The notes under the pieces are model-generated. The model ran no database searches. It worked only from the letters and a program-made list of their open reading frames with translations, and had not been told where the DNA came from. Source: Candidatus Flavonifractor merdavium (GTDB lineage: Bacteria > Bacillota > Clostridia > Oscillospirales > Oscillospiraceae). From it: 64,000 nt of DNA. Of this stretch, positions 37,782-50,598 are shown one piece after another (position 1 is the stretch's first letter; the number at the start of each line of letters is the position of its first letter). Location of the stretch: NCBI GenBank assembly GCA_019119335.1, contig DWXF01000023.1:1-64000 (forward strand), read 5' to 3'. The position numbers and the translations under genes are program-made.

Positions 37782-39290
37782 ATGCGAAGTGCCGGTATTC
37801 TGATGCCGATCACCGCGCTGCCCTCGCCGTGGGGCGTGGGAACCCTGGGCCGGGCCGCCAGAGGGTTTCTGGACTTTTTGGTGGAGAGCGGCCAGACCTA
37901 TTGGCAGATCCTGCCCATAGGTCCCACTGGCTACGGCGACTCCCCCTATCAGCCTTTCTCCTCCTATGGAGGAAACCCCTATTTCATCGACCTGGACGAT
38001 CTGGCCCGGCAGGGCCTGCTCCAGAAGGAGGAGTATGAGGGCCTGGACTGGGGCGGCCAGCCCGGCCGGGTGGATTACAGCGCCCTGTACCGGCAGCGGT
38101 TCCCGGTGCTCCGCAAAGCGGTGGAGCGGCTCTGGGCCGGGGAGGAAGAGGCGGTGCGGGCGTTCTGCCAAAAGGAGGCCCGCTGGCTGGAGGACTACGC
38201 CCTGTTCATGGCCCTGAAGGACCGGTTTGACGGCGTTCCCTGGCAGAGCTGGCCGGAGGGCCTGCGCCGCCGTCAGCCCCAGGCTCTGGAGGAGGCCCGG
38301 GGCCAGCTGGCGGCGGAGCTGAAGTTCTGGAAGGGCCTTCAGTTCCTGTTTTTCGCCCAGTGGGACAGCCTGAAGGCCCTGGCGGCGGAAAAGGGCATTT
38401 CCATCATCGGAGACCTGCCCATCTACGTGGCGGAGGACAGCGCCGATGTGTGGGCCCATCCGGAGCAGTTCCAGATGGACGAGCAGCTGCGGCCCACCCG
38501 GGTGGCGGGCTGTCCGCCGGACGGCTTTTCCGCGGATGGGCAGCTGTGGGGCAATCCCCTGTTTGATTGGGCGCGCATGGAACAGGACGGATACCGCTGG
38601 TGGATGGAGCGCATCTCCTTCCAGTTCCGCTTTTATGACGTGCTGCGCATTGACCACTTCCGGGGCTTCGACTCCTATTACGCCATCCCCGCCGCGGCGG
38701 AGACCGCCAAGGAGGGTTCCTGGGAGCCGGGGCCGGGCATCGCCTTCTTCCGCAGCATGGAGCGGGTGGTGGGCCAGCGGCCCATTATCGCCGAGGACCT
38801 GGGCTTTCTGACCCCGTCGGTCCAGAAGCTGCTGGAGGACACCGGCTATCCCGGCATGAAGGTGCTGGAATTTGCCTTTGACAGCCGGGACGGCGGCGGG
38901 CGGGTATACCAGCCCCACAACTACCCCGCCCACTGCGTGGCCTACGTGGGCACCCACGACAATGACACCGCCCTGGGCTGGCTGAGCGCCGCCCGGCCGG
39001 AGGATGTGGCGCTGGCCCGGGAGTATTTGCATCTGGATCCGGCGGAAGGGGAAAACTGGGGCATGATGCGGGCCATCTGGAGCAGCGCCGCCGGCTGCGC
39101 CATCGTTCAGATGCAGGATCTGCTGGGCCTGGGCTCGGAGGGGCGGATGAATACCCCCTCCACCTTGGGCGGAAACTGGCAGTGGCGGGCGCTGCCCGAC
39201 TTTGACAGCCCGGCGCTGGCCCGGCGGGTGCGGCGGCAGATGGAGCTGTATGAACGCCTGCCGGAGGAAAAAGGGGGAGAAGCTGTATGA
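37782..39290 (+). CDS. malQ: 4-alpha-glucanotransferase (amylomaltase)
   Basis: 502 residues from the ATG at 37782; a TTG two codons upstream (37776) has better spacing to AGGAAGG and may be the real start. GH77 features: RSAGILMPITALPSPWGVGTLG, PTGYGDSPYQPFSSYGGNPYFIDL, IGDLPIYVAEDSADVWAHPEQF, the nucleophile region VLRIDHFRGFDSYYAIPA, acid/base IIAEDLGFLT, and YVGTHDNDTALGW. It transfers glucan segments between maltodextrins, producing longer chains for the phosphorylase. Its last four bases overlap the glgP start. Confidence 0.97.
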   Translation: MRSAGILMPITALPSPWGVGTLGRAARGFLDFLVESGQTYWQILPIGPTGYGDSPYQPFSSYGGNPYFIDLDDLARQGLLQKEEYEGLDWGGQPGRVDYSALYRQRFPVLRKAVERLWAGEEEAVRAFCQKEARWLEDYALFMALKDRFDGVPWQSWPEGLRRRQPQALEEARGQLAAELKFWKGLQFLFFAQWDSLKALAAEKGISIIGDLPIYVAEDSADVWAHPEQFQMDEQLRPTRVAGCPPDGFSADGQLWGNPLFDWARMEQDGYRWWMERISFQFRFYDVLRIDHFRGFDSYYAIPAAAETAKEGSWEPGPGIAFFRSMERVVGQRPIIAEDLGFLTPSVQKLLEDTGYPGMKVLEFAFDSRDGGGRVYQPHNYPAHCVAYVGTHDNDTALGWLSAARPEDVALAREYLHLDPAEGENWGMMRAIWSSAAGCAIVQMQDLLGLGSEGRMNTPSTLGGNWQWRALPDFDSPALARRVRRQMELYERLPEEKGGEAV

Positions 39291-41557
39291 GGACCCAGAC
39301 TGATTTGGAACGTGTTTTGGCCGCCCGCGGGGTCAACCTGGACACCTGCTCCGACCGGGAGCTGATGTACGCCCTGACCGCCGCGGTGCGTCAGCTGCAA
39401 AAGCCCATGGACCACGCCGGGGGAAAGCGGAAGCTGTATTACTTCTCCGCGGAATTTCTGGTGGGCCGTCTGCTGCGGGCCAATCTGATCAACCTGGGCC
39501 TGCTGGAGGAGGCGGAGCGGCTGCTGGCCGCCCACGGCCGCTCCCTGGCCCAGGTGGAGGACCAGGAGCCGGAGCCCTCTCTGGGCAACGGCGGTCTGGG
39601 CCGTCTGGCTGCCTGTTTTCTGGATTCCATCGCCTCTTTGGGCCTCAACGGGGATGGGGTGGGCCTCAACTACCACTACGGCCTGTTCCGCCAGCGGCTG
39701 GACACCGGCCGGCAGACCGAGGAGCCCGACCCCTGGCTCGCGCCGGAGTCCTGGCTGCTGGACACCGGAGTGTCCTACCAGGTGGACTTTGGGGGCTTTT
39801 CCCTGAACGCCAGACAGTACGACCTGGAGATCCCCGGCTATGAGAACGGCGTATGCAACCGGCTGCACCTGTTCGACGTGGAGCGGCCCGCGCCGCCCCC
39901 CGCTGACGGCATCCGGTTTGACAAAACCGACATCGCCGGGCACCTGACCGCCTTCCTGTACCCCGACGACAGCGACGAGGCCGGCCGGCTGCTGCGGGTC
40001 TACCAGCAGTATTTCATGGTTTCCGCCGGCGCGCAGCTGCTGCTGCGGGAGCTGGAGGAGGCCGGCCACTCCCCGCTGGAGCTGGACCAGTATGCCGTGG
40101 TACACATCAACGACACCCACCCCTCCATGGTGATCCCCGAGCTGCTCCGGCTGCTCACCGCCCGGGGGGTGGAGCTGGAGCAGGCCATGGATCTGGTGGA
40201 GCGCACCTGCGCCTACACCAACCACACCATCCTGTCCGAGGCCCTGGAGAAGTGGCCCGCCTCCTATCTGGAGCAGGTGGCTCCCCAGCTTCTGCCCTTC
40301 ATCCGGGCCCTGGATCAGCGGGCCCGGCAGCGCAGCGACGATCCGCGGACGGCCATCTGGGACGAACACGACGTCATCCACATGGCCCATATGGATATCC
40401 ACAGCAGCGCCAAGGTCAACGGCGTGGCGGAGCTGCACACGGAGATTCTGAAAAACACCGAGCTGCACCCCTTCTATGTGCTCTATCCCGAAAAGTTCAA
40501 CAACAAGACCAACGGCATCACCTTCCGCCGGTGGCTGATGAGCTGCAATCCCGCCCTGGCCGGCCTGATTACCCAGGCCATCGGGCCGGAGTGGCAGCGG
40601 GACGCCGGGCTGCTGGAAAACCTGCTGGAGCACAAGGAGGACGGCGCCCTCCTGGAGCGGCTGCTGGCCGTGAAGGAGGAGAACAAGGGGGCGCTGGCCC
40701 GCTGGCTGGGGAGCCGGGGGACGGATATCGACCCCCACAGCGTCCTGGACATCCAGATCAAGCGGCTGCACCAGTACAAGCGCCAGCAGATGAACGCCCT
40801 GTACGCCATCTGGAAGTATTTCCAGATCAAGGAGGGGCACACCCCGCCCCGGCCCGTGACCATGGTGTTCGGCGCCAAGGCGGCCCCGGCCTACACCCTG
40901 GCCAAGGACACCATCCACCTGCTGCTGTGCCTGGGCAAGCTGATTGAGCGGGACCCCCAGGTCTCCCCCTGGCTGAAGCTGGTGATGGTGGAAAACTACA
41001 ACGTCTCCGCCGCCGAGCGGCTGGTCCCCGCCTGCGACATCTCCGAGCAGATCTCCCTGGCCTCCAAGGAGGCCAGCGGCACCGGCAACATGAAGCTGAT
41101 GGCCAACGGCGCGGTCACCCTGGGCACCCTGGACGGGGCCAATGTGGAGATCGCCCGGCTGGTGGGGGAGGGCAACATCTATCTGTTCGGCCGTTCCGCC
41201 GACGAGGTTATTGCCCTCTACCGGGACAACGCCTACCGCAGCAGCGACTACTGGCAGAAGCCGGAGCTGGAGCGGCTGGTGGACTTCATCCTCAGCCCGG
41301 AGCTGCTGGCTATCGGCGACGCCGGGTGTCTGAGCCGGCTCTACAAGGACTTCATCGCCAAGGACTACTTTATGGCCCTACTGGATCTGGAGGACTATAT
41401 CGCGGTGAAGGAGCGGTGCCTGGCCGAGTACGAGGACCGGGCCGCCTGGAGCCGCAAGATGCTGGTCAACATCGCCCGCTCCGGCTTCTTCTCCTCCGAC
41501 CGCACCATTATGGAGTATAACCGGGACATCTGGCGCCTGACCCCGGATAGAGCCTGA
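39287..41557 (+). CDS. glgP: Glycogen/maltodextrin phosphorylase
   Basis: 756 residues; ATG at 39287 in the overlap ATGA. GT35 phosphorylase: YYFSAEFLVGRLL, EPSLGNGGLGRLAACFLDS, HINDTHPSMVIPELLRLL, YTNHTILSEALEKWP, and the pyridoxal-phosphate site EASGTGNMKLMANGA with Lys603, then LDGANVEI. The family is 750-850 residues; the shorter N-terminus suggests no phosphorylation or AMP control. It releases glucose-1-phosphate from alpha-1,4-glucans. With MalQ it completes intracellular maltodextrin use. Confidence 0.97.
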   Translation: MRTQTDLERVLAARGVNLDTCSDRELMYALTAAVRQLQKPMDHAGGKRKLYYFSAEFLVGRLLRANLINLGLLEEAERLLAAHGRSLAQVEDQEPEPSLGNGGLGRLAACFLDSIASLGLNGDGVGLNYHYGLFRQRLDTGRQTEEPDPWLAPESWLLDTGVSYQVDFGGFSLNARQYDLEIPGYENGVCNRLHLFDVERPAPPPADGIRFDKTDIAGHLTAFLYPDDSDEAGRLLRVYQQYFMVSAGAQLLLRELEEAGHSPLELDQYAVVHINDTHPSMVIPELLRLLTARGVELEQAMDLVERTCAYTNHTILSEALEKWPASYLEQVAPQLLPFIRALDQRARQRSDDPRTAIWDEHDVIHMAHMDIHSSAKVNGVAELHTEILKNTELHPFYVLYPEKFNNKTNGITFRRWLMSCNPALAGLITQAIGPEWQRDAGLLENLLEHKEDGALLERLLAVKEENKGALARWLGSRGTDIDPHSVLDIQIKRLHQYKRQQMNALYAIWKYFQIKEGHTPPRPVTMVFGAKAAPAYTLAKDTIHLLLCLGKLIERDPQVSPWLKLVMVENYNVSAAERLVPACDISEQISLASKEASGTGNMKLMANGAVTLGTLDGANVEIARLVGEGNIYLFGRSADEVIALYRDNAYRSSDYWQKPELERLVDFILSPELLAIGDAGCLSRLYKDFIAKDYFMALLDLEDYIAVKERCLAEYEDRAAWSRKMLVNIARSGFFSSDRTIMEYNRDIWRLTPDRA

Positions 41558-41568
41558 GCATGCAAAGA

Positions 41569-41617
41569 AACGTACCCCCTGATGCACAGTCTGCATCAGG
41601 GGGTACGTTATTTTTTC
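41569..41617 (+). terminator. Terminator of the maltodextrin operon
   Basis: 18-bp perfect stem (AACGTACCCCCTGATGCA and complement), then ATTTTTT. It lies between convergent glgP and the redox operon. Confidence 0.92.
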
Positions 41618-41628
41618 TGTTGGCAGGG

Positions 41629-42066
41629 TTACAGGAACAGGCTGCTGCACCCCTGAACGGCCAGAAAGAGCACGCCGGCGGAGAGAAGCGGCGCCAGCCT
41701 GCCCGCCGGGCCGGAGGCCAGGCGCTCACAGATGGCGGTAAACAGGAAGGTCAGCACCAGAAAGGCCCCGCAGCTCACCACTGTGAACCGGAGCAGCTCC
41801 TGAAGGGCCACCAGTCCGGCGGCCAGGGGGAGCAGGGCAAAGGTCAGCCCGCCCAGCAGGGCCACCACGGGCCAGACCCGCCGCTCCATCCGGGGTCCGG
41901 AGTAGGACTCCAGGACAAGGGCCAGCAGAGAGAGCCCGCTGACCAGCATCAGGTCCACAGGGGGGAGGATGGCGGCGGGGGAATAGGTCTGGACCAGCAG
42001 GTATCCCAGAAATGCCAGGCCGGTCACCGCCGCCAGGAAGGTATTCAGACGATAGGCGTTTTTCAT
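41629..42066 (-). CDS. Unrecognised membrane protein at the end of the rnfCDG operon
   Basis: 145 residues from the ATG at 42066 (GGGAGG upstream), four bases after the rnfG stop. About four membrane helices: NTFLAAVTGLAFLGYLLVQTY, VDLMLVSGLSLLALVLESY, VVALLGGLTFALLPLAAGLVALQELL and FTVVSCGAFLVLTFLFTAICERL, then GRLAPLLSAGVLFLAVQG. It occupies the place where rnfE follows rnfG in standard clusters. It lacks the paired Cys motifs and the six-helix length of RnfA/RnfE. I cannot assign a family; a membrane anchor or partner for RnfD/G is the simplest inference. Confidence 0.6.
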   Translation of the reverse strand: MKNAYRLNTFLAAVTGLAFLGYLLVQTYSPAAILPPVDLMLVSGLSLLALVLESYSGPRMERRVWPVVALLGGLTFALLPLAAGLVALQELLRFTVVSCGAFLVLTFLFTAICERLASGPAGRLAPLLSAGVLFLAVQGCSSLFL

Positions 42067-42070
42067 CACA

Positions 42071-42610
42071 TCAACCTCCCCATTCCGTGGCGCTGGAGCC
42101 AATATCCGCGCCGGTCACAAAGGCGCTGGCCGAGGTGACCGCCTTGGCCACGGCCTTGGAGGTCACGGTGGCCCCGGTGAGGGCGTCCACGTTTTCGCCC
42201 ACGGTGAACGAGGTGCCGTTCCAGAGGAACTGGGACAGAAAGTCCGCGTCGGAGAGGGCGTTCATGCCCAGACCGTAGGTCTCCTGCATGTCCCGCACCA
42301 CCAGGCCGGAAATGGAGCCGTCGGAGTGTACGCCCACCAGCATGGTGATGTCCCCGGCGTATCCCGCCGTGACCGTTTCGATCACGTAGCCGTTTTCCGC
42401 CTTATATACGGCGGAGATGGCCTCGTCCTCTCCGGTATAGGCCTCCTGGGTAAAGCTGTCCGCGCCGGGCAGGAGGGTGGACAGAATGGACTGCAGCTCC
42501 TGCTCCTCCTGCTCCCGGGCGATAGGGGAGAGCACGGTGGAGCTCAGAAACAGGACCAGCGCCGCCAGCAGGAGGGCGGCCACGGGCTGAAGCCACGGTA
42601 TTCGCTTCAC
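42071..42610 (-). CDS. rnfG: RnfG-type FMN-binding membrane-anchored electron carrier
   Basis: 179 residues; GTG start at 42610 in the overlap with the rnfD stop, AAGGAGGGG upstream. One N-terminal membrane helix (VAALLLAALVLFLSSTVLSP), then an extracytosolic FMN_bind domain. The ApbE flavinylation motif is DALTGATVTS, with acceptor Thr148. The body has YVIETVTAGYAGDITMLVGVHSDGSISGL and ETYGLGMNAL, as in RnfG/NqrC. It would carry covalent FMN outside the membrane and exchange electrons with RnfD. Confidence 0.93.
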   Translation of the reverse strand: MKRIPWLQPVAALLLAALVLFLSSTVLSPIAREQEEQELQSILSTLLPGADSFTQEAYTGEDEAISAVYKAENGYVIETVTAGYAGDITMLVGVHSDGSISGLVVRDMQETYGLGMNALSDADFLSQFLWNGTSFTVGENVDALTGATVTSKAVAKAVTSASAFVTGADIGSSATEWGG

Positions 42611-43581
42611 TGTACGCCCCCTCCTTTCACGGTGCCGAAGCGCTTGGGCGGCGCAAGCCGGTCCAGGCTCCAGGCACAGGCGTTCATCAGCAAAATGGCA
42701 TAGGTGACCCCTTCCGGGAACAGGCCGTAGTAGCGCAGCAGCACCGTAAGCACGCCGCAGCCCACCCCGTAGAGCAGCTGGGCCCCGGGGGTCACGGGGG
42801 AGGTGGCGTAGTCGGTGGCCATAAAGAGGGCCCCCAGCAGCACGCCGCCGCACATCAGGCTGTAAAGCATCCACTGGACAGGGTCCTGTCCCTTGGAGAA
42901 AATCAGGGTGAGCAGGGCCACAGAGCCCAGGTAGGCCGCGGGAATACGCCAGGAGATCACTCTGCGGAGCATCAGATAGCCGCCGCCCAGCAGCAGGGCC
43001 AGGGCGGACACCTCGCCGATGCACCCGCCCATGTTCCCCAGAAACACATCCAGCAGGGATTCCGTGGGCAGGGCGGGCATGACCATGTGGTGGAGAGGGG
43101 TGGCGGCGGAGACGATATCCACCGACAGGGCCGTCGGATCCAGCGCGGCGCCCGCCGGGGCGTACCGCACCATCCAGCCGGGCCAGAGCAGGACCAGAAG
43201 GGCCCGGGCGGCCAGGGCGGGGTTAAAGATATTCTGGCCCAGGCCGCCGATGAGGCCCTTGACCACCACGATGGCAAAGACGCCTCCCACCGCCCCCAGC
43301 CAGTAGGGGACGGAGGCCGGCAGCGTCATAGCCAGCAGCACGCCGGTCACCGCCGCCGAGAGGTCCGGCAGGGTGTTGCTCTGCCTGGTGAGCATGCGGA
43401 AAAGCCACTCGGAGAGCAGGCAGGAGAGCACGGTGACTCCGGTGAGCACCAGGGCCCTCAGCCCGAAAAACCACACGCCGGCAAAGAGGGCGGGGAGCAG
43501 CGCCAGAAGCACGTCGCCCATCAGGCGGCTGGTGCGGGCGCCGCTATGGATATGGGGAGAGGATGTTACCAGCAGATTCAT
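42607..43581 (-). CDS. rnfD: RnfD-type flavin-carrying membrane subunit
   Basis: 324 residues from the ATG at 43581 (GGAGGC upstream); the start overlaps the rnfC stop. About nine to ten membrane helices. N-terminal SSPHIHSGARTSRLMGDVLLALLPAL is the RnfD/NqrB entry. The flavinylation motif VDIVSAATPL holds acceptor Thr161. C-terminal MATDYATSPVTPGAQLLYGVGCGVLTVLLRYYGLFPEGVTYAILLMNAC is typical of the family. It passes electrons through the membrane between RnfC-side and RnfG-side cofactors. Confidence 0.94.
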   Translation of the reverse strand: MNLLVTSSPHIHSGARTSRLMGDVLLALLPALFAGVWFFGLRALVLTGVTVLSCLLSEWLFRMLTRQSNTLPDLSAAVTGVLLAMTLPASVPYWLGAVGGVFAIVVVKGLIGGLGQNIFNPALAARALLVLLWPGWMVRYAPAGAALDPTALSVDIVSAATPLHHMVMPALPTESLLDVFLGNMGGCIGEVSALALLLGGGYLMLRRVISWRIPAAYLGSVALLTLIFSKGQDPVQWMLYSLMCGGVLLGALFMATDYATSPVTPGAQLLYGVGCGVLTVLLRYYGLFPEGVTYAILLMNACAWSLDRLAPPKRFGTVKGGGVQ

Positions 43582-44885
43582 GCTCTGTTCGCCTCCTTCA
43601 GCTGCTGTTTGCCCGCGCCGAACCGCTCCACCAGGGGGAGCTGGCCCGGGCAGCTGTAAGCGCAGCTGCCGCACTCGATACAGTCCGTCAGGTGCAGACG
43701 CTCCAGCTCCCGGAGGTTCCCGGCCTGTTCAAAACGGTATAAGTACAGCGGCTGCAGATGCATGGGACAGACGGACACGCACTTGGCGCAGCGGATGCAG
43801 GTTGGGGTTTTGGCCTGGGGAGCGGCGCCCTTCAGGCACAGGATGGCGTTGGTGCCCTTGAGTACCGGCACGGACAGGTCCTTTTGGGCCACGCCCATCA
43901 TGGGGCCGCCGGAGAGCACCTTTTGGGTCTCCTCCGCCATGCCGCCGGCGGCCTCCAGGGTCTGCTGGAAGGTGGCGCCGATGCGGACGATCAGGTTCTT
44001 GGGGGCGGCGGCGCCGTCGCCGGTCACGGTCACAATGCGGCGGGTGACCGGTTTGCCCTCGTAGACCGCCTGGTAAACGGCGGCGGCGGTGGCCGCGTTG
44101 AACACGGCGCAGCCCACGGCGGCGGGCAGCTTTCCGGGGGGAACCTGCCGGCCGGTGACCGCCTGTATCAGCTGCTTTTCCGCGCCCTGGGGGTAGCGGG
44201 TGGGGAGCACCCGCAGCTCAATGGCCCCCTCTTTGGGCAGGGCCTCCCCCAGGATCCGGATGGCCTCCTGCTTGTTGTCCTCCACGGCGATTACGGCGTG
44301 CCTGGGAGTGAGGGCATGGAGGAGAATCTCCGTGCCGCGGGTCACCTGCTCCGGATAGGTACACAGCAGGGTGTCGTCGGCGGTGATGTAGGGCTCGCAC
44401 TCACAGGCGTTGATGATGACGTAGTCCACCTGACCAAGGGCGGAAAAGGCTTTCACGTCCGTGGGGAAGGTGGCGCCCCCCATGCCCACGATGCCCGCGT
44501 CCCGGATGACCCGGAGGATCTCCTCCGGGGCGAGGTCTTTGTGGGTCAGATGGGGCTTCAGGGTATCGTCGGGGGTGTCCATGTAGTCGTTTTCGATGAC
44601 CACCGACAGCACATCCTGTCCGTTGGGATGGGGGCGTGGTTCCACAGCCACCACCTTGCCGGAGACGGAGGCGTGGATGGGGGCACAGACCCCCTCGCCG
44701 TCGCCGATCTTCTGGCCCAGCCGCACCTGATCCCCCACCTTCACCACAGGGGTGCAGGCCGCGCCGATGTGCTGGAGCATGGGCAAAACCACCTGCGCCG
44801 GCAGCGGCGCGGGAACGGGAGCCGCCCCCCGGGAGAGGTCCTTGTGCCCCTCCGGGTGGATGCCGCCCCAAAACAGTTTTCTCAT
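43578..44885 (-). CDS. rnfC: RnfC-type NADH-binding iron-sulfur subunit
   Basis: 435 residues; GAGGTG precedes the ATG at 44885. It contains the biotinyl/lipoyl-like N-terminal portion (VVKVGDQVRLGQKIG...PIHASVSGKVVAVE), the NADH/FMN-binding Rossmann part (GIVGMGGATFPTDVK, NACECEPYITADD), a SLBB segment, and two 4Fe-4S motifs CIRCAKCVSVCP and CIECGSCAYSCP. Length and motifs are complete, so it should still take electrons from or give them to NAD(H) on the cytosolic side. The partner rnfB gene for ferredoxin is not in the operon. Confidence 0.95.
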   Translation of the reverse strand: MRKLFWGGIHPEGHKDLSRGAAPVPAPLPAQVVLPMLQHIGAACTPVVKVGDQVRLGQKIGDGEGVCAPIHASVSGKVVAVEPRPHPNGQDVLSVVIENDYMDTPDDTLKPHLTHKDLAPEEILRVIRDAGIVGMGGATFPTDVKAFSALGQVDYVIINACECEPYITADDTLLCTYPEQVTRGTEILLHALTPRHAVIAVEDNKQEAIRILGEALPKEGAIELRVLPTRYPQGAEKQLIQAVTGRQVPPGKLPAAVGCAVFNAATAAAVYQAVYEGKPVTRRIVTVTGDGAAAPKNLIVRIGATFQQTLEAAGGMAEETQKVLSGGPMMGVAQKDLSVPVLKGTNAILCLKGAAPQAKTPTCIRCAKCVSVCPMHLQPLYLYRFEQAGNLRELERLHLTDCIECGSCAYSCPGQLPLVERFGAGKQQLKEANRA

Positions 44886-44916
44886 TCTTTACACCTCAAT
44901 CATACGAGCGCTCAGT

Positions 44917-45951
44917 CTACACTCGGATATACGCCTGAAATCCCGGACTGTACAGGATGGTTCCGTCCGGGCGCATCCACATGGCCTCTGCCCCGAAGGC
45001 GTCCAGCAGGGCCTGGCCCTCCTCCTGGGGCAGGGTGAACAGGGCGGTGGAGAGGGCGTCCGCCACGCCGGAATCCCCGCACAGGATGGTGACCGCCCGC
45101 CAGTAGCCGGCGGGGAAGAGGGTGTCCGGGTCAATGATGTGGTGATACGCCACGCCGTCCACAGTGAAATACCGCTGGTAATCTCCGCTGGTGACCACGG
45201 AGCGGTCTTTCACATAGAGGGTGTGGAGGTACTGCTCCGAATCGTCCGGGTCCTGGACCCCCACCACCCAGGGCTGGCCGTTTTCCGGCTTGGGGCCGGT
45301 GGCCCGGACGTTTCCGCCCACGCTGATGAGCAGCCCGGAGGGGGCGTTCCGGCAGACCTGCTCCACGGCGTAGCCTTTGGCGATGGCCCCCACGTCCAGC
45401 CTGACCTCCGGGTCGGACAGAAACACGGTGCCCTGTTCCGGGTCAATCTGGATGCTGTCTATATCGGTGTGGGCCGCGGCCAGCTCCAGGGCCTCCCCAT
45501 CGGGCAGGGCCGCCGCCCCGGGGTCCTGGATACCGGCCTCCCGGGCGTCATGCCACAGGCGGAGCACGCTGCCCATGGCAATGTTGACCCTGCCCCCGGT
45601 CTGGGTATACAGCTCCTTGGAGAACTGCAGCAGGTCGATGATCCGCCGGTCCACCTCCACCGGCTGCTCCCAGGCGCGGTCGTTGATGGTCTTGATGTTG
45701 GAAAGCCCCTCATACTCGTTGTAGATGTCATAGAGCTGGTGGTACTCCAGCAGCTGGTCGTGGATGGCCTGGGCGGTGGCGGTAAAGGCCTCCTCCGACT
45801 CGGCGTACCCCACGATGGTGGTGACCGTGTCAAACAGCGTCAGGAAGGTGGCCTGGTAGCGCTTCAGCCCGTCGCCGGCGGGCTCCGCCGGCGACGCCGT
45901 ACATCCGCAGAGCAGGGCCAGCAGGAGGAGCAGGGTGAAGATCCGTTTCAT
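44917..45951 (-). CDS. apbE: FAD:protein FMN transferase (ApbE) lipoprotein
   Basis: 344 residues from the ATG at 45951. Lipoprotein signal MKRIFTLLLLLALLCGC with lipobox LLCGC, so it acts outside the membrane. ApbE features: FDTVTTIVGYAESEE, VNIAMGSVLRLWHDAREAG, LDVGAIAKGYAVEQV, LISVGGNVRATGPK, and the metal/pyrophosphate end TLFPAGYWRAVTILCGDSGVADALSTALF. It moves FMN from FAD onto threonines in [ST][GA]AT motifs, present in RnfD (Thr161) and RnfG (Thr148) of the same operon. Confidence 0.95.
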   Translation of the reverse strand: MKRIFTLLLLLALLCGCTASPAEPAGDGLKRYQATFLTLFDTVTTIVGYAESEEAFTATAQAIHDQLLEYHQLYDIYNEYEGLSNIKTINDRAWEQPVEVDRRIIDLLQFSKELYTQTGGRVNIAMGSVLRLWHDAREAGIQDPGAAALPDGEALELAAAHTDIDSIQIDPEQGTVFLSDPEVRLDVGAIAKGYAVEQVCRNAPSGLLISVGGNVRATGPKPENGQPWVVGVQDPDDSEQYLHTLYVKDRSVVTSGDYQRYFTVDGVAYHHIIDPDTLFPAGYWRAVTILCGDSGVADALSTALFTLPQEEGQALLDAFGAEAMWMRPDGTILYSPGFQAYIRV

Positions 45952-45973
45952 ATGTCTGCGCTTCCGGGCGGGC

Positions 45974-47047
45974 TCAGGCGCCGGCCTTGGCCAGCAGGGC
46001 CTGGAACTCCCCGATGGAAAGGGTGACGGAGGCGGCCAGGTCGGCGTCGGCGGCGGCTCCCGTCTCCGTGACGGCCAGGCCCGCCACCTGGTCCAGGGTC
46101 TTGCCCGTGACGTAGGTACAGAAGCCGGCGGCCTGCTCATACCACTCCTTGCCGATGGAGCTGGCCTTCTTCATGCCGTAATCGTCCCCCAGCTGGTTTT
46201 TGGAGGGCTGGGCCGCGGTCAGGTCGGAGGTGACCGCGCCGGCGGTGTCGAAATTCACGTTGGCCTGCACCGCGTCGATGTAGCAGCTGGTGATCACGTC
46301 GCCGCTGAGGGTGACGGCGGCCACGGTGGCGTAGGTCTGGATGAGCCCGTCCTCCTCCTGGGTGGCGCTCTTGCTGCTTGCCACGTTGGTGGAGGTGGTG
46401 AGGGCCAGCCGGTCCCCCTGGCTGGCGCCCAGGTGGGTGGCGTTGGCCACGGCCTGCTGGATGGCGTCCAGGTAACCGCCGATGGATATGGTGACGGAGG
46501 CGGCCAGGTCGGCGTCGGCGGGCCTGCCCTCCTCGGTTACGGCGATGCCCTGGAGCTCCTCCACCGTCTTGCCCTCCACATAGTCGGCCAGCGCCTGGGC
46601 CTGCTGGTTCCACTCCTTGCCGATGGGGCTGTACTTGCCCATGCCGTAGTCGCTGCCCAGCTCATTTTTGGAGGGCACCGGGGCGGTCGGGTCGGCGGTC
46701 ACGTTTCCGGCGGCGTCAAAGCTGACCTTTGACTGGATGGAATCGATCACGCAGGAGTCGATGACCCCTTCGTCGGTTACGGTGACAGCCACCAGGTCAA
46801 TGTCGGCCTGGCCGAGGCCGTCCTCGCCGTCGGCGGCGCTTTTGCTGCCGGACACGCTGGCGCTCAGGTAAAGGCCGGTCTTGACCGCCTCGCCCGAGGG
46901 CTCCCGGGACTGGTCGGGGGTGGGGGCGGCGGTTGCCGGTACGGACTCCTGGGGCGGGGGCACGGCCACCACCGCCGTGCTGCCGCAGGCGGACAGAGCG
47001 CCCATTGTCAGCGTACCGGTCAGGATCAAGGCAAGCAGTTTCTTCAT
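45974..47047 (-). CDS. Lipoprotein with two FMN_bind-like repeats
   Basis: 357 residues; AGGAGG precedes the ATG at 47047. Lipobox LSAC after MKKLLALILTGTLTMGA, a Pro-rich linker, then two tandem repeats of about 140 residues. Each repeat runs from an SKSA strand through VIDSCVIDSIQSKVSFD / VITSCYIDAVQANVNFD, SKNELGSDYGM / SKNQLGDDYGM, IGKEW and VEGKTVEELQGIAVTE / VTGKTLDQVAGLAVTE, to ADADLAASVT. The last segment occupies the place of the flavin motif of FMN_bind domains (compare DALTGATVT in RnfG), but with AAS instead of GAT. I infer a divergent extracellular FMN_bind-type carrier, either flavin-bearing through Ser or not at all. Confidence 0.6.
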   Translation of the reverse strand: MKKLLALILTGTLTMGALSACGSTAVVAVPPPQESVPATAAPTPDQSREPSGEAVKTGLYLSASVSGSKSAADGEDGLGQADIDLVAVTVTDEGVIDSCVIDSIQSKVSFDAAGNVTADPTAPVPSKNELGSDYGMGKYSPIGKEWNQQAQALADYVEGKTVEELQGIAVTEEGRPADADLAASVTISIGGYLDAIQQAVANATHLGASQGDRLALTTSTNVASSKSATQEEDGLIQTYATVAAVTLSGDVITSCYIDAVQANVNFDTAGAVTSDLTAAQPSKNQLGDDYGMKKASSIGKEWYEQAAGFCTYVTGKTLDQVAGLAVTETGAAADADLAASVTLSIGEFQALLAKAGA

Positions 47048-47067
47048 ATGTAGTACCTCCTGAATGA

Positions 47068-47385
47068 TTAGTGGATCTGTTTCATTTCAAAGTGGATCAA
47101 AAACGACAGCAGCGCCCGCAGCAGGATGACAGCGCCCAGAAATATCAGCTCGTTGAGCTCATGGACCAGGACTGTTTTCAGAATCTCCGCCGCCATTTTG
47201 AATTCCAGGCCGATGGCCAGACCGTTGGCCAGGGCGAACTTCACGTCCCCCTCCGCATGGGTGATAAGCCCCTTCACATAGCGGATAAACGCGCCGACCG
47301 CCGACACCGCCACCACGAAAATGCCCATCAGCTCCAGCAGGGAGATCAGTGTGGGCAGCGCGGTTTCAATCCATTGTTTCAGCAT
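47068..47385 (-). CDS. DUF1622 family membrane protein
   Basis: 105 residues from the ATG at 47385 (GGAGGC upstream). Three membrane helices; the middle has the DUF1622 pattern AIGLEFKMAAEILKTVLVHELNELIFLGAVILLRALLSFLIHFEM, preceded by the basic stretch RYVKGLITHAEGDVKFA. The function of the family is unknown. It lies 20 bp ahead of the lipoprotein gene, in the same operon as apbE and rnfCDG. Confidence 0.85.
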   Translation of the reverse strand: MLKQWIETALPTLISLLELMGIFVVAVSAVGAFIRYVKGLITHAEGDVKFALANGLAIGLEFKMAAEILKTVLVHELNELIFLGAVILLRALLSFLIHFEMKQIH

Positions 47386-47438
47386 AAGTAGCCTCCACTC
47401 CTGATACAACATTGGTAAGGTTGTGGCTCCCCCTGGAC

Positions 47439-47924
47439 TCAGGGACTTCTGCGCCTGCGCATTACGTTCAGCGCTACAAACTGGCCCAGCAGCTCCACGG
47501 TGCCCTCCGTACCCAGAAGGCCGCTGTTTACCGTCAGGTCATACCGGTCCAGATCGGCCCATTTTGCCCCGGTATAGTAGCCGTACAGCCGGGACCGCTC
47601 CCGGTCCTGATACAGGGCCTCCCGCTGGGCCTGCTCCCGGGAGAGGGTATTTTCCTCCATGATCCGCTCCAGCCGGCGCTCCATGTCGCAGTGAACGAAA
47701 ATGCGCATCAGGCCCTCCCGGCCGGTCAGCACAAAGTCGGCGCAAAAGCCCACCATGACGCAGGGCCCCCGCTCCGCCAGCCGGAGGAGCTGCTCCCGCC
47801 AGCCGTCGTCGCCGGGCTGGGGCAGGAAGTCCACGTCGTAATAGGGAACATCCAGACGTTCCGCCAGCCGCCGGCCGATCTCCCGCCCGCCGCTGCCGTA
47901 CTTCCGCGTAATTGTGATAATCAT
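47439..47924 (-). CDS. Cytidylate-kinase-like protein
   Basis: 161 residues from the ATG at 47924 (GGAGCAGTCAA upstream). It starts with IITITRKYGSGGREIGRRLAERLDVPYYD, the P-loop-like entry of the cytidylate kinase-like family (AAK/Cmk2 type), and continues with VMVGFCADFVL and RIFVHCDMERRLERIMEE. It is shorter than typical members (about 200 residues). The substrate is unknown; such proteins are often found beside membrane redox or transport genes. First gene of the leftward redox operon. Confidence 0.8.
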   Translation of the reverse strand: MIITITRKYGSGGREIGRRLAERLDVPYYDVDFLPQPGDDGWREQLLRLAERGPCVMVGFCADFVLTGREGLMRIFVHCDMERRLERIMEENTLSREQAQREALYQDRERSRLYGYYTGAKWADLDRYDLTVNSGLLGTEGTVELLGQFVALNVMRRRRSP

Positions 47925-47962
47925 TTGACTGCTCCATTTCGCGCCCAAAAGAATTTGATAAA

Positions 47963-47991
47963 ATTATAACAATCTCTTCTTAATGAGTCAT
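47963..47991 (-). promoter_or_regulatory. Possible promoter of the redox operon, with palindromes
   Basis: On the minus strand: consensus TATAAT (47963-47968) with a weak -35 (ATGACT, 47986-47991) at 17 bp. The -35 lies in the palindrome GAGTCATTACTC (47985-47996). A second perfect palindrome, CTTAATATTTATTAAG, is just upstream at 48001-48016. A regulator-dependent promoter is inferred. Confidence 0.5.
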
Positions 47992-48018
47992 TACTCCACC
48001 CTTAATATTTATTAAGAA

Positions 48019-48060
48019 AGTGGGATGGACGCCGCTTCGGAAAGCGGCGTCCATCCCACT
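48019..48060 (-). terminator. Terminator of the histidine kinase gene
   Basis: 19-bp stem (AGTGGGATGGACGCCGCTT and complement around CGGA), followed by CTTTCTT on the minus strand. Confidence 0.75.
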
Positions 48061-48066
48061 TTGGGG

Positions 48067-49821
48067 TCATATATCGTTGTCCCTGCGCTCCGCATCCGGC
48101 GGCGGAAGGGGCAGGCGGACGGTGATGGTGGTCCCCCGGCCCGGCTGGCTGTGGACCGAAACGCTGCCCTGGTGGTCCTGGACCACCTGCTGTACGATGG
48201 CCAGTCCCAGTCCGGTGCCTTTTCCCCGCTCCTTGGTGGTGAAGAAGGGCTCAAAAATGTGCTCCAGCAGGCCGGGGTCGATTCCCGGACCCGTATCGGC
48301 CACATGGAAGCAGACGGCGTCCCCGTCCTGCTCCGTTGTGACGGTCAGGGACCCGCCGTCGGTCTCCATGGCCTGATAGGCATTCAAAATCAGGTTCAGC
48401 AGCATCTGGGACAGCTGGATCTCGTTGCCCCGCACCCAGAGGTGGCGGCAGTGGAGCCGGCTGCCCACCTCCACCTTGGGCGGCTTGGCCGGGGCGGAGA
48501 TCTCCAGAACTCGCCGCACCAGCTCGTCCGGCGCCACGTACTGAAAGGTGAGGGGGGTGTTTTTCCGCGAAAGGTCGGAGAGCCGGGAGATGATGGTCTT
48601 TGCCTTGCGGGAGGCCTCATAGATCTCCAGCACGTTGTCGTACAGCTCCTCGGTGTCCGGCGGCAGCTTTTCCAGAACCAGAATGGAATAGCCCATGATG
48701 GGGGTCAGCAGGTTGTTGAATTCATGGGCGATGCTGGAGGTCAGGGTGCCGATGATCTCCAGCCGCTGATGATGGGCCAGGGCCTGGGTCTTTTTCGTCA
48801 CCGCCTCCAGCGCCAGATTCTGTTCCCGGAGGGTGAGCACCTCCTGCTGGGCCCTCACATTGCGCCGGGCCACAAACAGAATCAGCGTCAACAGCAGCAG
48901 GATGCCGGTTATGATCATACTGCTGTATGCGGCAAGCCGTATGGTAGCCATGTGGATGGGCCGTTTGACGGTCTCATAATTGAGGGAGGCCCCCACGGAA
49001 AACACGCCGTTGTTGCCGGCGGCGGGAAGGGCCGCTATCCGCGCCGTATAGCCTTCCCCCTCCCGTTCTTCCCCCGCCTGGTAAAAGACGGCGGCCTCCT
49101 CCCCGGTGCGCTGGCAGCTCAGCAGGATATCCAGTTCGTCGGAATAGATCCCTTCCGGCAGGCCGTCGGAGATCAGCGCCGCCCCGGGGCCCGTCTGGGT
49201 CTGGTAGAGCGCCGCCCTTCCCCCCGCGTCCAGCAGCAGGATGCGGTCCTGGGTCCCGGCAATCAGGTTTCCCGCCACGGCCTGGTAGAAATCGGTGAGG
49301 CTGACCAGCACGCCGTATTGCAGGCCCCCGTTGCTGGTTTTCAGAAACGAGAGATAAATGTCGCCCGCCCCGTCGATACATGGCCCGATGCGGATTTCCC
49401 CATCCAGTCCGGCCCGGGCGGGGAAGGTGTAGTCGGTCCTGCCCCGGGCGGAATAGACAATGGCGTCCCCGTCCAGGCACAGCATGTCGTAGGTCAGCGG
49501 GTGGTCCCACAGGATGGTGTCCCGCAGATTTTGCGCAATACTTGCGGCGTTTCCGCCGTTCCGGTAGGCCGCCTCCGCCTCCTCCAGCCCAGCCCGCCGC
49601 ACGGTGTGCTCCAGGTCCCGCAAAAACTGCTGCAGGTAGCTGGTGATGCTCCGGTCAACCGAGCGGGCCAGGCCCAGAAGCTGCCGGTCCTCATTTTCGA
49701 TGATGAGGCTTTCGTACTGCTGAAACACGCGGAATACCATCACAATCCCCGTGCAGATCAGGCCGAGGGTCAACAGTACGGCAATCAGAACTTTGCGCTC
49801 CTGCCGGATGAATTGCTTCAA
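48067..49821 (-). CDS. Membrane sensor histidine kinase
   Basis: 584 residues. Membrane helix near the N-terminus (VLIAVLLTLGLICTGIVMVFRVF), an extracytosolic sensor of about 260 residues (Cache-like by size and position), a second helix (AAYSSMIITGILLLLTLILFV), a coiled-coil linker, then the kinase core. H-box SIAHEFNNLLTPIMGYS (phospho-acceptor His), N-box LNLILNAYQAME, G1 VADTGPGID, F-box EPFFTTK and G2 GKGTGLGLAI. The core is of the NtrB/HisKA type. Divergent from the response regulator and next to the tct transporter, so it resembles the TctE role: sensing an external organic acid. Confidence 0.92.
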   Translation of the reverse strand: MKQFIRQERKVLIAVLLTLGLICTGIVMVFRVFQQYESLIIENEDRQLLGLARSVDRSITSYLQQFLRDLEHTVRRAGLEEAEAAYRNGGNAASIAQNLRDTILWDHPLTYDMLCLDGDAIVYSARGRTDYTFPARAGLDGEIRIGPCIDGAGDIYLSFLKTSNGGLQYGVLVSLTDFYQAVAGNLIAGTQDRILLLDAGGRAALYQTQTGPGAALISDGLPEGIYSDELDILLSCQRTGEEAAVFYQAGEEREGEGYTARIAALPAAGNNGVFSVGASLNYETVKRPIHMATIRLAAYSSMIITGILLLLTLILFVARRNVRAQQEVLTLREQNLALEAVTKKTQALAHHQRLEIIGTLTSSIAHEFNNLLTPIMGYSILVLEKLPPDTEELYDNVLEIYEASRKAKTIISRLSDLSRKNTPLTFQYVAPDELVRRVLEISAPAKPPKVEVGSRLHCRHLWVRGNEIQLSQMLLNLILNAYQAMETDGGSLTVTTEQDGDAVCFHVADTGPGIDPGLLEHIFEPFFTTKERGKGTGLGLAIVQQVVQDHQGSVSVHSQPGRGTTITVRLPLPPPDAERRDNDI

Positions 49822-49911
49822 TTCTCATGCCCCCCCTTGCCAAAGCCCGTAAGATTCTTTTATACTGGATATCATAATGTATGAAACAGGCTGTGTAAAG
49901 GGGGATGCACC

Positions 49912-50598
49912 ATGGCGGACCAGGTGCTCATTGTGGACGACGATCAGGCGGTTCTCGCCATGCTGTATAAGGTCATCAGCAGCAATGGTCTTCAGGCGGA
50001 CACCGCCGAGTCGGGGGAGGCGTGCCTGGAGCTGCTGAAGCAGAAGCAATATGACCTGCTTTTGCTGGACATCAACCTGTCCGGCATGGACGGCTTTCAG
50101 GTGATCCAGCACATCCGGCGGCAGGGCAGCAAGATCCCCATTGTGATTGTCAGCGGCCGGAAGGAGGATTACGACACGCTCTACGGCCTGGATATCGGCG
50201 CTGACGACTACATCACAAAGCCTCTGAATCCCGTCACCCTGGCCGCAAAGGTGAAGGCGCTCATCCGCCGCAGCCGGGGCAATCTGCCCGGCGCGGACCA
50301 GGTGATCACCGCCGGCCCCTTTCAGTACAATACCAGTACCCTGCGGTTTTACAAAAACGGGGCGGAAATTCCCCTTTCCTCCAAGGAAAACGCCATCATC
50401 AAGCTGTTTATGGACAATGTAAATCACATTTTTTCCAAAGATATGATTTACGATCTGGTGTGGGGGTCGGCCATTATTGATGAAAACGCCATCATGGTGT
50501 ACATCAACCGGCTCCGGGCGAAAATTGAGGAAAATCCGTCCAAGCCCCAGTATATTCAGACCGTTCGCGGGCTGGGGTACCGGTTTGTGGTTCCGTAA
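49912..50598 (+). CDS. OmpR/PhoB-family response regulator
   Basis: 228 residues; AAGGGGGATG region precedes the ATG. Receiver domain: LIVDDDQAVL acidic pocket, phospho-acceptor Asp in LLLDINLSGMDGF, IVIVSGRKEDYDTLYGLDIGADDYITKPL. C-terminal winged helix: ISLSSKENAIIKLF-like segment, IFSKDMIYDLVWG, NAIMVYINRLRAKIEE and QTVRGLGYRFVVP. It pairs with the divergent kinase, and a terminator separates it from tctC. Its likely target is the tct-sulfatase operon, as in TctD systems. Confidence 0.94.
   Translation: MADQVLIVDDDQAVLAMLYKVISSNGLQADTAESGEACLELLKQKQYDLLLLDINLSGMDGFQVIQHIRRQGSKIPIVIVSGRKEDYDTLYGLDIGADDYITKPLNPVTLAAKVKALIRRSRGNLPGADQVITAGPFQYNTSTLRFYKNGAEIPLSSKENAIIKLFMDNVNHIFSKDMIYDLVWGSAIIDENAIMVYINRLRAKIEENPSKPQYIQTVRGLGYRFVVP

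Follow-up and report, generated by a model that had tools for sequence, protein, structure and literature searches.

A candidate NADH-to-exterior electron conduit built from RnfC, RnfD, RnfG and a cysteine-less RnfA relative in Oscillospiraceae

The presence in Candidatus Flavonifractor merdavium of an operon that carries rnfC, rnfD and rnfG beside genes for an ApbE flavin transferase and a lipoprotein, and from which canonical rnfA, rnfB and rnfE are absent, raises the question as to what such a partial Rnf cluster might do. We analysed it within a 64,000-nucleotide stretch of DNA (the window) and across related genomes. As a first-pass annotation of the window had described, eight genes with short gaps or overlaps lie on the minus strand (41629-47924); in gene order they are spaced by 53, 20, 22 and 31 bases, overlap twice by 4 bases and are then separated by 4 bases (Table 1). 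The same annotation had placed the end of the operon at a terminator shared with the convergent glgP, where a terminator-like stem was indeed found. No Rfam family was found in 40000-50500, and neither a terminal reductase nor a membrane NADH dehydrogenase (K03885) is encoded among the eight genes of the operon. The DUF1622 protein is accessory and the cytidylate-kinase-like protein probably lies outside the electron path.

Table 1 Features of the operon and its flanks, by position in the window
Feature	Position	Strand	Evidence and remarks
Sigma-70-like promoter site	47963-47991	-	Upstream of the first (kinase-like) gene; 10/12 consensus match only, TG before second hexamer
Cytidylate-kinase-like protein	47439-47924	-	Pfam Cytidylate_kin2, E 6.6e-37; in 12/92 loci scanned
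DUF1622 small membrane protein	47068-47385	-	Pfam DUF1622, E 5.9e-17; in 21/92 loci scanned
Lipoprotein	45974-47047	-	Lipobox Cys21; two repeats of ~150 aa, probably FMN-bind2 type; flavinylation positions occupied by Thr186 and Thr342
ApbE flavin transferase	44917-45951	-	Pfam ApbE, E 4.7e-66
RnfC	43578-44885	-	Complex1_51K (FMN/NADH), SLBB, two [4Fe-4S] motifs
RnfD membrane subunit	42607-43581	-	Pfam RnfD, E 3.7e-108; SAATP flavinylation-type motif, Thr162
RnfG	42071-42610	-	GTG start; N-terminal hydrophobic segment; FMN_bind domain, TGAT motif Thr148
M145, last gene of the module	41629-42066	-	Five-helix membrane protein of 145 aa; remote cysteine-less RnfA relative
Terminator-like stem, 18 pairs	41569-41609		Between the operon and convergent glgP (39287-41557, +)

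RnfC matches the Pfam 51K (E 2.3e-48) and RnfC_N (E 3.4e-34) models and carries CxxCxxCxxxCP twice, at 363 and 402, in keeping with the two 4Fe-4S motifs originally reported. RnfG matches Pfam FMN_bind (E 1.6e-16) and scored 67.5 against NCBIfam rnfG, below the cut-off of 102; its TGAT threonine is residue 148, as first numbered. The threonine motif of RnfD is also present, but the residue is 162 and not 161, and the protein matches PF03116 alone, with no PF00175 fusion. Across the module, both iron-sulfur motifs occur in 48/49 RnfC rows, [ST]GAT in 43/47 RnfG rows and the ATP motif in 40/46 RnfD rows; cofactor motifs are mostly retained. RnfG of two relatives has three FMN_bind stretches. An unrooted tree limited to distinct RnfD sequences no shorter than 270 aa, its canonical rows drawn from a single family as either the top-scoring loci or ones fetched for the purpose, split module from canonical operon type 46/46 with support of 100/100.

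The product of the last gene, M145, had been described as an unknown membrane protein of 145 residues. A membrane protein it is, but its relationship now appears recognisable: profile-profile comparison with RnfA gave E 6.6e-7, against 0.16-0.65 for six other families and a minimum of 0.0072 in 40 shuffles, the relationship being confident across the C-terminal pair of helices and a forced path running from end to end. Among 14 weak HMM matches of M145 in 400 genomes, 13 fell on RnfA. Assignments as RnfE-like (profile E 0.16), EetB-like (0.21) and DUF1622-like (0.65) were rejected. The protein lies below Pfam detection (the window protein matches 0 families, and 1/30 members matches PF02508, at E 0.32), NCBIfam names no family for it, and Foldseek against the PDB returned no significant match, the best RnfA chain standing at E 0.99. 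Its AF2 model (pLDDT 91.3) has five helices, in contrast to six per subunit in the parent RnfA/RnfE, with no counterpart of the first segment of RnfA. Whereas Cys28 and Cys116 of RnfA are present in 22/22 canonical rows, no Cys or His column of M145 exceeds 13/30 rows, and without conserved cysteines the protein should not hold a [2Fe-2S] cluster. M145 is thus best described, from profiles and alignment, as a remote and shortened RnfA relative without the conserved cysteines, and to say that the operon has no RnfA is too simple. It accompanies rnfC, rnfD and rnfG in 44/46 loci, or 40/42 once same-contig duplicates are removed (the pairs L044/L079, L045/L063, L047/L089 and L052/L098), and both loci without it run into contig ends. 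In a class-level search of 393 genomes, with at most ten candidates scored per genome, the M145 profile found the window genome only, among the 21 matches listed (three of the host's family), and absence outside the family is accordingly soft.

The lipoprotein is present in 45/46 module loci. The lipoprotein scan covered the best 80 of 529 relatives. An ApbE gene occurs in the same locus in 77/80 named loci. Both flavinylation positions hold Thr or Ser in 31/31 aligned rows, three of the 34 sequences requested (L064, L094 and L124) having been dropped for a stop codon in the stretch. The register of this alignment agrees with 2KZX, which at E 2e-4 was the one PDB sequence obtained up to E 1, and with canonical RnfG (E 0.0053; hhalign probability 6.8); the module's own RnfG gave E 0.15, no better than controls. 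The motif is degenerate, with AASVT in place of [ST]GAT, Pfam FMN_bind models match 0/8 members, neither Pfam nor NCBIfam names a family for the protein, and Foldseek of its model against the PDB gave no significant fold. Taken together these comparisons moderately support the lipoprotein as a putative FMN protein. Inspected by eye, the ApbE of the window also shows a lipobox-like start.

The core lipoprotein-ApbE-RnfC-RnfD-RnfG-M145 recurs in Oscillospiraceae and some Lachnospiraceae; Flavonifractor plautii ATCC 29863 (L069) is among the carriers of the module. Gene order in related operons, a comparison that the first-pass annotation had proposed, proved stable, with RnfC-D-G in 45/46 loci and rnfA or rnfE in 0/92 loci scanned. 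Only four frames in the 92 loci had the RnfB model as their best match; the scores were weak (E 1.2e-4 to 1.5e-7) and all four frames lie outside the core operons. Module frames with cofactor motifs occur in 35/400 genomes of the host's family (12/106 genera). RnfA/RnfE-type genes are found in 28 of the 35 M145-positive genomes, the window genome included (one, G670, by a partial match only), and PF02508 is wholly absent from the other seven, four of which are at least 90% complete; within the 10 genomes examined for the RnfB iron-sulfur domain, none of these four has an RnfB-sized frame with it. The window genome carries a complete rnfCDGEAB on another contig (C51), and the eight-gene operon is therefore a second system. 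The original statement that RnfA, RnfB and RnfE are missing holds for the canonical genes of the operon, but it does not extend to the genome and overlooks the RnfA relative in the operon itself. The rnfEAB genes, whose discovery elsewhere in the genome together with co-expression had been named as evidence against a conduit, were literally found, but inside their own complete cluster, and other module genomes do without them. Since seven M145-positive genomes have none, the module need not borrow RnfA or RnfE, and borrowing of rnfEAB was rejected. A recent origin by duplication from the rnf of the same genome was rejected too, as the two RnfD proteins are 52% identical and fall in separate clades.

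With a probability of about 0.65 we read the operon as a one-way half of Rnf, in which NADH would reduce the FMN of RnfC, the two [4Fe-4S] clusters of RnfC would hand electrons to the flavins of RnfD, and from there the electrons would cross the membrane and reach the FMN carried by RnfG. They would leave for an external acceptor by way of the lipoprotein, whose two domains are probably both flavinylated; ApbE would attach the flavins, and neither ferredoxin nor quinone would be required. M145 probably takes up some of the room that RnfA and RnfE would otherwise occupy and serves as a docking piece between RnfG and RnfD; without cluster cysteines it would be unable to return electrons to the cytosolic side. 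Electron flow and its direction, flavinylation of the lipoprotein and the role of M145 are what we infer; the sequences themselves show which genes are present, their motifs and their conservation, the occurrence of the module in genomes that lack RnfA/E, and the kinship of M145 with RnfA. An NAD(H)-to-outside conduit through RnfC-D-G and the lipoprotein had been proposed at the outset, and it is still the best reading (0/92 loci with rnfA/rnfE, 7/35 genomes without PF02508, cofactor motifs, ApbE in 77/80), but with the absence of RnfA amended. The quinone prenyltransferase UbiA (PF01040) was found in 0/12 module genomes, the window's included, out of the 35, with 14/14 controls positive.

Listeria-type loci for flavin-based extracellular electron transfer comprise Ndh2, demethylmenaquinone, PplA, FmnB and EetA/EetB. 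As far as the cited account of that locus goes (PMC9973259), the module resembles it in a lipoprotein with two putative FMN-type repeats and an ApbE, a pair that many relatives have next to EetA/EetB, but it has no Ndh2 in the operon and no UbiA-type enzyme in the 12 genomes tested, its transmembrane step would be made by RnfC-D-G, and its lipoprotein is compared with PplA at the level of architecture. EetA/EetB occur in 22/46 loci with rnfC, rnfD and rnfG; they are not in the window operon, and the window genome has them on the contig of its complete rnf. We withdrew them as a mark of an extracellular electron transfer locus because eetB is also reported to adjoin Rnf genes in 572 clostridial genomes, so that near the module they speak for flavin supply and not for extracellular transfer as such. 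NQR/RNF-like systems, in the parts of the descriptions drawn on here (Meheust et al. 2021, PMC8238504; PMC10979944), have an RnfD-NqrF (PF00175) fusion plus RnfG, with the RnfD threonine not conserved. They share with the module an RnfG/NqrC-like FMN subunit and, putatively, a single flavin route that crosses the membrane one way, from NAD(P)H to an FMN domain on the extracytosolic side, but the module has a true RnfC with two iron-sulfur motifs, the RnfD threonine, M145 and the lipoprotein, and its RnfD (PF03116) has no C-terminal PF00175. With the Rnf complex rnfCDGEAB it has in common RnfC, RnfD and RnfG with iron-sulfur and flavinylation motifs, an ApbE and the remote RnfA relative; unlike that complex it has no RnfE, no RnfB and no RnfA/RnfE pair with four conserved [2Fe-2S] cysteines, adds the lipoprotein and is found in genomes with no RnfA/E match. 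Published cluster definitions, as given in these accounts, require RnfB for RNF, a PF00175 fusion for NQR/RNF-like and a membrane NADH dehydrogenase for EET. Judged by gene content, the module appears to be a new form of flavin-based extracytosolic electron transfer outside the definitions compared.

Several other readings have to be weighed. The products could instead join RnfA, RnfE and RnfB of the complete operon, as alternative subunits of a modified ferredoxin:NAD pump, as the 28 genomes with RnfA/RnfE-type genes would allow; the seven module genomes that lack them, the module's own RnfA relative and the separate clade of its RnfD make this very improbable. A decaying, functionless duplicate of rnf, for which the missing E, A and B might speak, has next to no probability and appears already contradicted by conservation, given cofactor-motif frames in 12/106 genera and a fixed gene order. 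It is unlikely that the system feeds an envelope reductase or repair protein of its own, or takes up electrons from outside to make NADH, in place of general extracellular electron transfer. The operon has no terminal reductase, and in the parent Rnf complex the flavin steps can run in both directions; however, the lipoprotein is nearly constant in module loci and no other extracytosolic partner was recognised among the gene families scanned.

Somewhat less likely again is an energy-conserving NADH:external-acceptor oxidoreductase, in which RnfC-D-G and M145 still move Na+ or H+ through RnfD, an M145 dimer or both. That M145 is kept with the module means that it matters, and one published model, as far as its description goes, sets the Na+ channel or ion path in NqrB/RnfD (PMC12174285); against this, the module lacks the redox-switched [2Fe-2S] gate of RnfA/E, and another published model, in the account available here, sets ion transport in RnfA-E. 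Going beyond the one-way conduit itself, we propose only tentatively, at a little under even odds, that RnfC-RnfD-RnfG-M145 is a distinct respiratory complex of gut Oscillospiraceae, in which loss of RnfE, RnfB and the RnfA iron-sulfur cluster made a reversible pump into a quinone-free NADH-to-exterior conduit, perhaps still moving ions through RnfD and an M145 dimer.

If the one-way conduit is real, the module would be a natural experiment that halves Rnf, with the NADH-RnfC-RnfD-RnfG branch kept, the ferredoxin-RnfB-RnfA/E branch gone and the cluster-less RnfA relative left in place, and would bear directly on whether ions cross Rnf/Nqr in RnfD or in RnfA/E. Gut clostridia that are seemingly unable to make quinones would also gain a means of dumping NADH electrons outside the cell, by a route unnamed under the RNF, NQR/RNF-like and EET cluster definitions compared.

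The eight tightly packed genes at the centre of this analysis had been read in the first-pass annotation as an NAD(H)-to-outside conduit, in which RnfC-D-G pass electrons to a lipoprotein in an operon without RnfA, RnfB and RnfE. The description of the operon stands overall, with one correction: the threonine of RnfD is at residue 162 and not at the position then given. There are 4-base overlaps between RnfC and RnfD and between RnfD and RnfG, a promoter-like site (10/12 match) lies ahead of the cytidylate-kinase-like first gene, with 3 such sites in the region vs 1.0 expected, and no Rfam families were found in window 40000-50500. The genes missing from the operon are present elsewhere in the genome (81.6% complete), since rnfEAB form part of a complete rnfC-D-G-E-A-B on contig C51. 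The window and C51 copies share 52% (RnfC), 52% (RnfD) and 37% (RnfG) identity, and the window operon is therefore a second system beside the complete rnf.

Features of the window operon and of compared loci (L-numbers; C51, other contig of the window genome)
Feature	Coordinates	Strand	Remarks
Operon	window 41629-47924	minus	cytidylate-kinase-like, DUF1622, lipoprotein, ApbE, RnfC, RnfD, RnfG, M145 (145-aa membrane protein)
Strong terminator-like stem	window 41569-41609		after M145, end of operon
Inverted repeat	window about 48010-48060 (by eye)		between sensor histidine kinase gene and operon
Sensor histidine kinase gene	window 48067-49821	minus	immediately upstream of operon, same strand
RnfG Thr/Leu site	position 21 of aligned stretch (window frame)		residue 28 of canonical copy
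EetA (NusG_II), EetB (Hpre_diP_synt_I), second ApbE	C51:36148-37017 (L142)		contig of canonical rnf, outside window operon
Enlarged RnfG	L049:8518-10902		794 aa
Enlarged RnfG	L053:8291-9946		552 aa to contig end
Divergent gene order	L121:1242-7815		EetA EetB DUF1622 lipoprotein ApbE, several RnfG-like stretches, RnfC, RnfD, contig end
Split lipoprotein	L051:10477-11516		genome G135 (no RnfA/E match); two adjacent frames; frameshift or assembly error

A lipoprotein profile recovered 529 relatives from an 84,980-species collection. The best 80 of these, from Flavonifractor, other Oscillospiraceae, Lachnospiraceae, Ruminiclostridium, Sedimentibacter and Spirochaetales records, were annotated with 10 loci from family (Oscillospiraceae) genomes, the window stretch and one more stretch of its genome, giving 92 loci. 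The window lipoprotein shares 97% identity with its counterpart in Flavonifractor sp. An306. rnfC, rnfD and rnfG occur together at 46 of the 92 loci, accompanied by M145 at 44, the lipoprotein at 45, ApbE at 43 and EetA/EetB at 22, and M145 is found at 40/42 once four same-contig duplicates are removed. The two loci without it both lie at contig ends, L053 stopping inside rnfG and L121 after rnfD, and RnfA and RnfE models matched 0/92 loci. Half of the best 80 (40/80) are without RnfC, with EetA or EetB at 21 of these 40; lipoprotein-ApbE pairs with no nearby RnfC gene were seen for example at L083, L084, L094, L103, L107, L111 and L138.

Among family genomes a single M145 query matched in 10/200 and a 30-row profile in 49/400, 35 of them strongly (E < 1e-19) and across 12/106 genera. 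Of the 14 weak matches, 13 correspond to the RnfA of rnf loci with RnfE and RnfB, and one (genome G094) to no recognised gene. Profile-profile comparison with a 22-row RnfA profile gave E 6.6e-7 (probability 92), vs E 0.16 for RnfE, 0.21 for EetB, 0.65 for DUF1622, 0.4 for RnfD, 0.2 for RnfG and 0.45 for RnfB; as controls, the best of 40 block-shuffled M145 profiles reached 0.0072 and a reversed M145 profile 0.46, and the positive pair RnfA/RnfE scored 1.5e-24. Judged from these comparisons M145 is a relative of RnfA. The confident alignment covers 57 C-terminal columns, and a forced end-to-end path places M145 on RnfA 34-196, so that the first RnfA segment with Cys28 has no counterpart. A permissive BLASTP alignment with the RnfA encoded in the window genome (23% identity, 145 columns, E 6e-4) has a different N-terminal register, which leaves the match of the N-terminal helices unsure. 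Pfam did not detect PF02508 (the RnfA/RnfE family) on M145, and Foldseek with the predicted model (five helices, pLDDT 91.3) returned nothing significant, RnfA chains 8ahx_A and 9eri_A ranking 2 and 6 of 48 matches (E 0.99 and 2.4) and a third, 7zc6_A, being absent from the 48 listed. Cys28 and Cys116 are present in 22/22 canonical RnfA rows, and in M145 Cys or His occupies at most 13/30 rows of any column. In the parent complex, according to PMC12174285, the [2Fe-2S] cluster linking RnfB to RnfG is bound by four cysteines, two from RnfA and two from RnfE; M145 should be unable to hold it, and its role in the module is one that we infer.

The remaining Rnf subunits of the module mostly keep their redox motifs, with both FeS motifs of RnfC in 48/49 module rows vs 37/38 full-Rnf rows, the [ST]GAT motif of RnfG in 43/47 vs 39/48 and the ATP motif of RnfD in 40/46 vs 44/46. 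In the RnfG transmembrane region one site is Thr in 100% of full-Rnf rows and Leu in 89% of module rows, perhaps a contact with RnfA/E. In two relatives RnfG is enlarged and has three FMN_bind stretches, possibly a built-in electron relay, as would be expected if RnfG were the exit for electrons.

The lipoprotein carries two repeats after the lipobox cysteine (self-comparison E 2.5e-68), this cysteine being present in 26/31 rows with three rows gapped there. Both repeats contain the motif D-L-x-x-S-V-T, its last place Thr or Ser in 31/31 rows each. 2KZX (E 2e-4) is the sole PDB sequence found within E 1, and its SGAT aligns on this motif; the canonical RnfG profile falls into this register too (E 0.0053), but its probability is just 6.8, and the module RnfG profile gave E 0.15, the level of controls. 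It speaks against an FMN-type domain that neither Pfam FMN_bind nor a fold search with the lipoprotein model gave a significant match. The repeats fit the FMN-bind2 type, described in PMC10979944 as about 160 aa and often in even-numbered copies.

UbiA-type prenyltransferase is required for (demethyl)menaquinone, and it was found in 0/12 module genomes tested vs 14/14 controls, which makes a Listeria-type Ndh2-quinone-PplA route unlikely; RnfC-D-G can provide the transmembrane step from NADH. EetA/EetB, seen immediately upstream of the lipoprotein in several relatives (e.g. genomes G136, G053 and G135), point to flavin supply only. Under the operational definitions of Meheust et al. (PMC8238504), RnfB is required of an RNF cluster, fusion of PF03116 to PF00175 of an NQR/RNF-like one and a membrane NADH dehydrogenase of an EET one; the window operon encodes none of the three and falls under none of these definitions. 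No prior account of the operon was found in the open-access literature on Rnf, flavinylation and extracellular transfer, covered mostly at the level of abstracts.

In an unrooted RnfD tree of 92 distinct rows, sampled mostly from one family, the 46 module rows form one side and the 46 full-Rnf rows the other, a split that has 100/100 support and recurs in 100% of the 200 bootstrap trees. PF02508 had no match in 7/35 genomes with strong M145, four of them 94-99% complete (G135, G614, G736, G741) and three 70-86% complete (G634, G707, G776). The FeS domain PF04060 was not matched in G614 and G741, and G135 and G736 have one match each in a 767-aa frame, the RnfB frame of the window genome being 303 aa. 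By sequence comparison the module is a separate lineage and occurs in genomes where RnfA/E are not found; we infer the direction, acceptor and ion coupling of the conduit that it would form.
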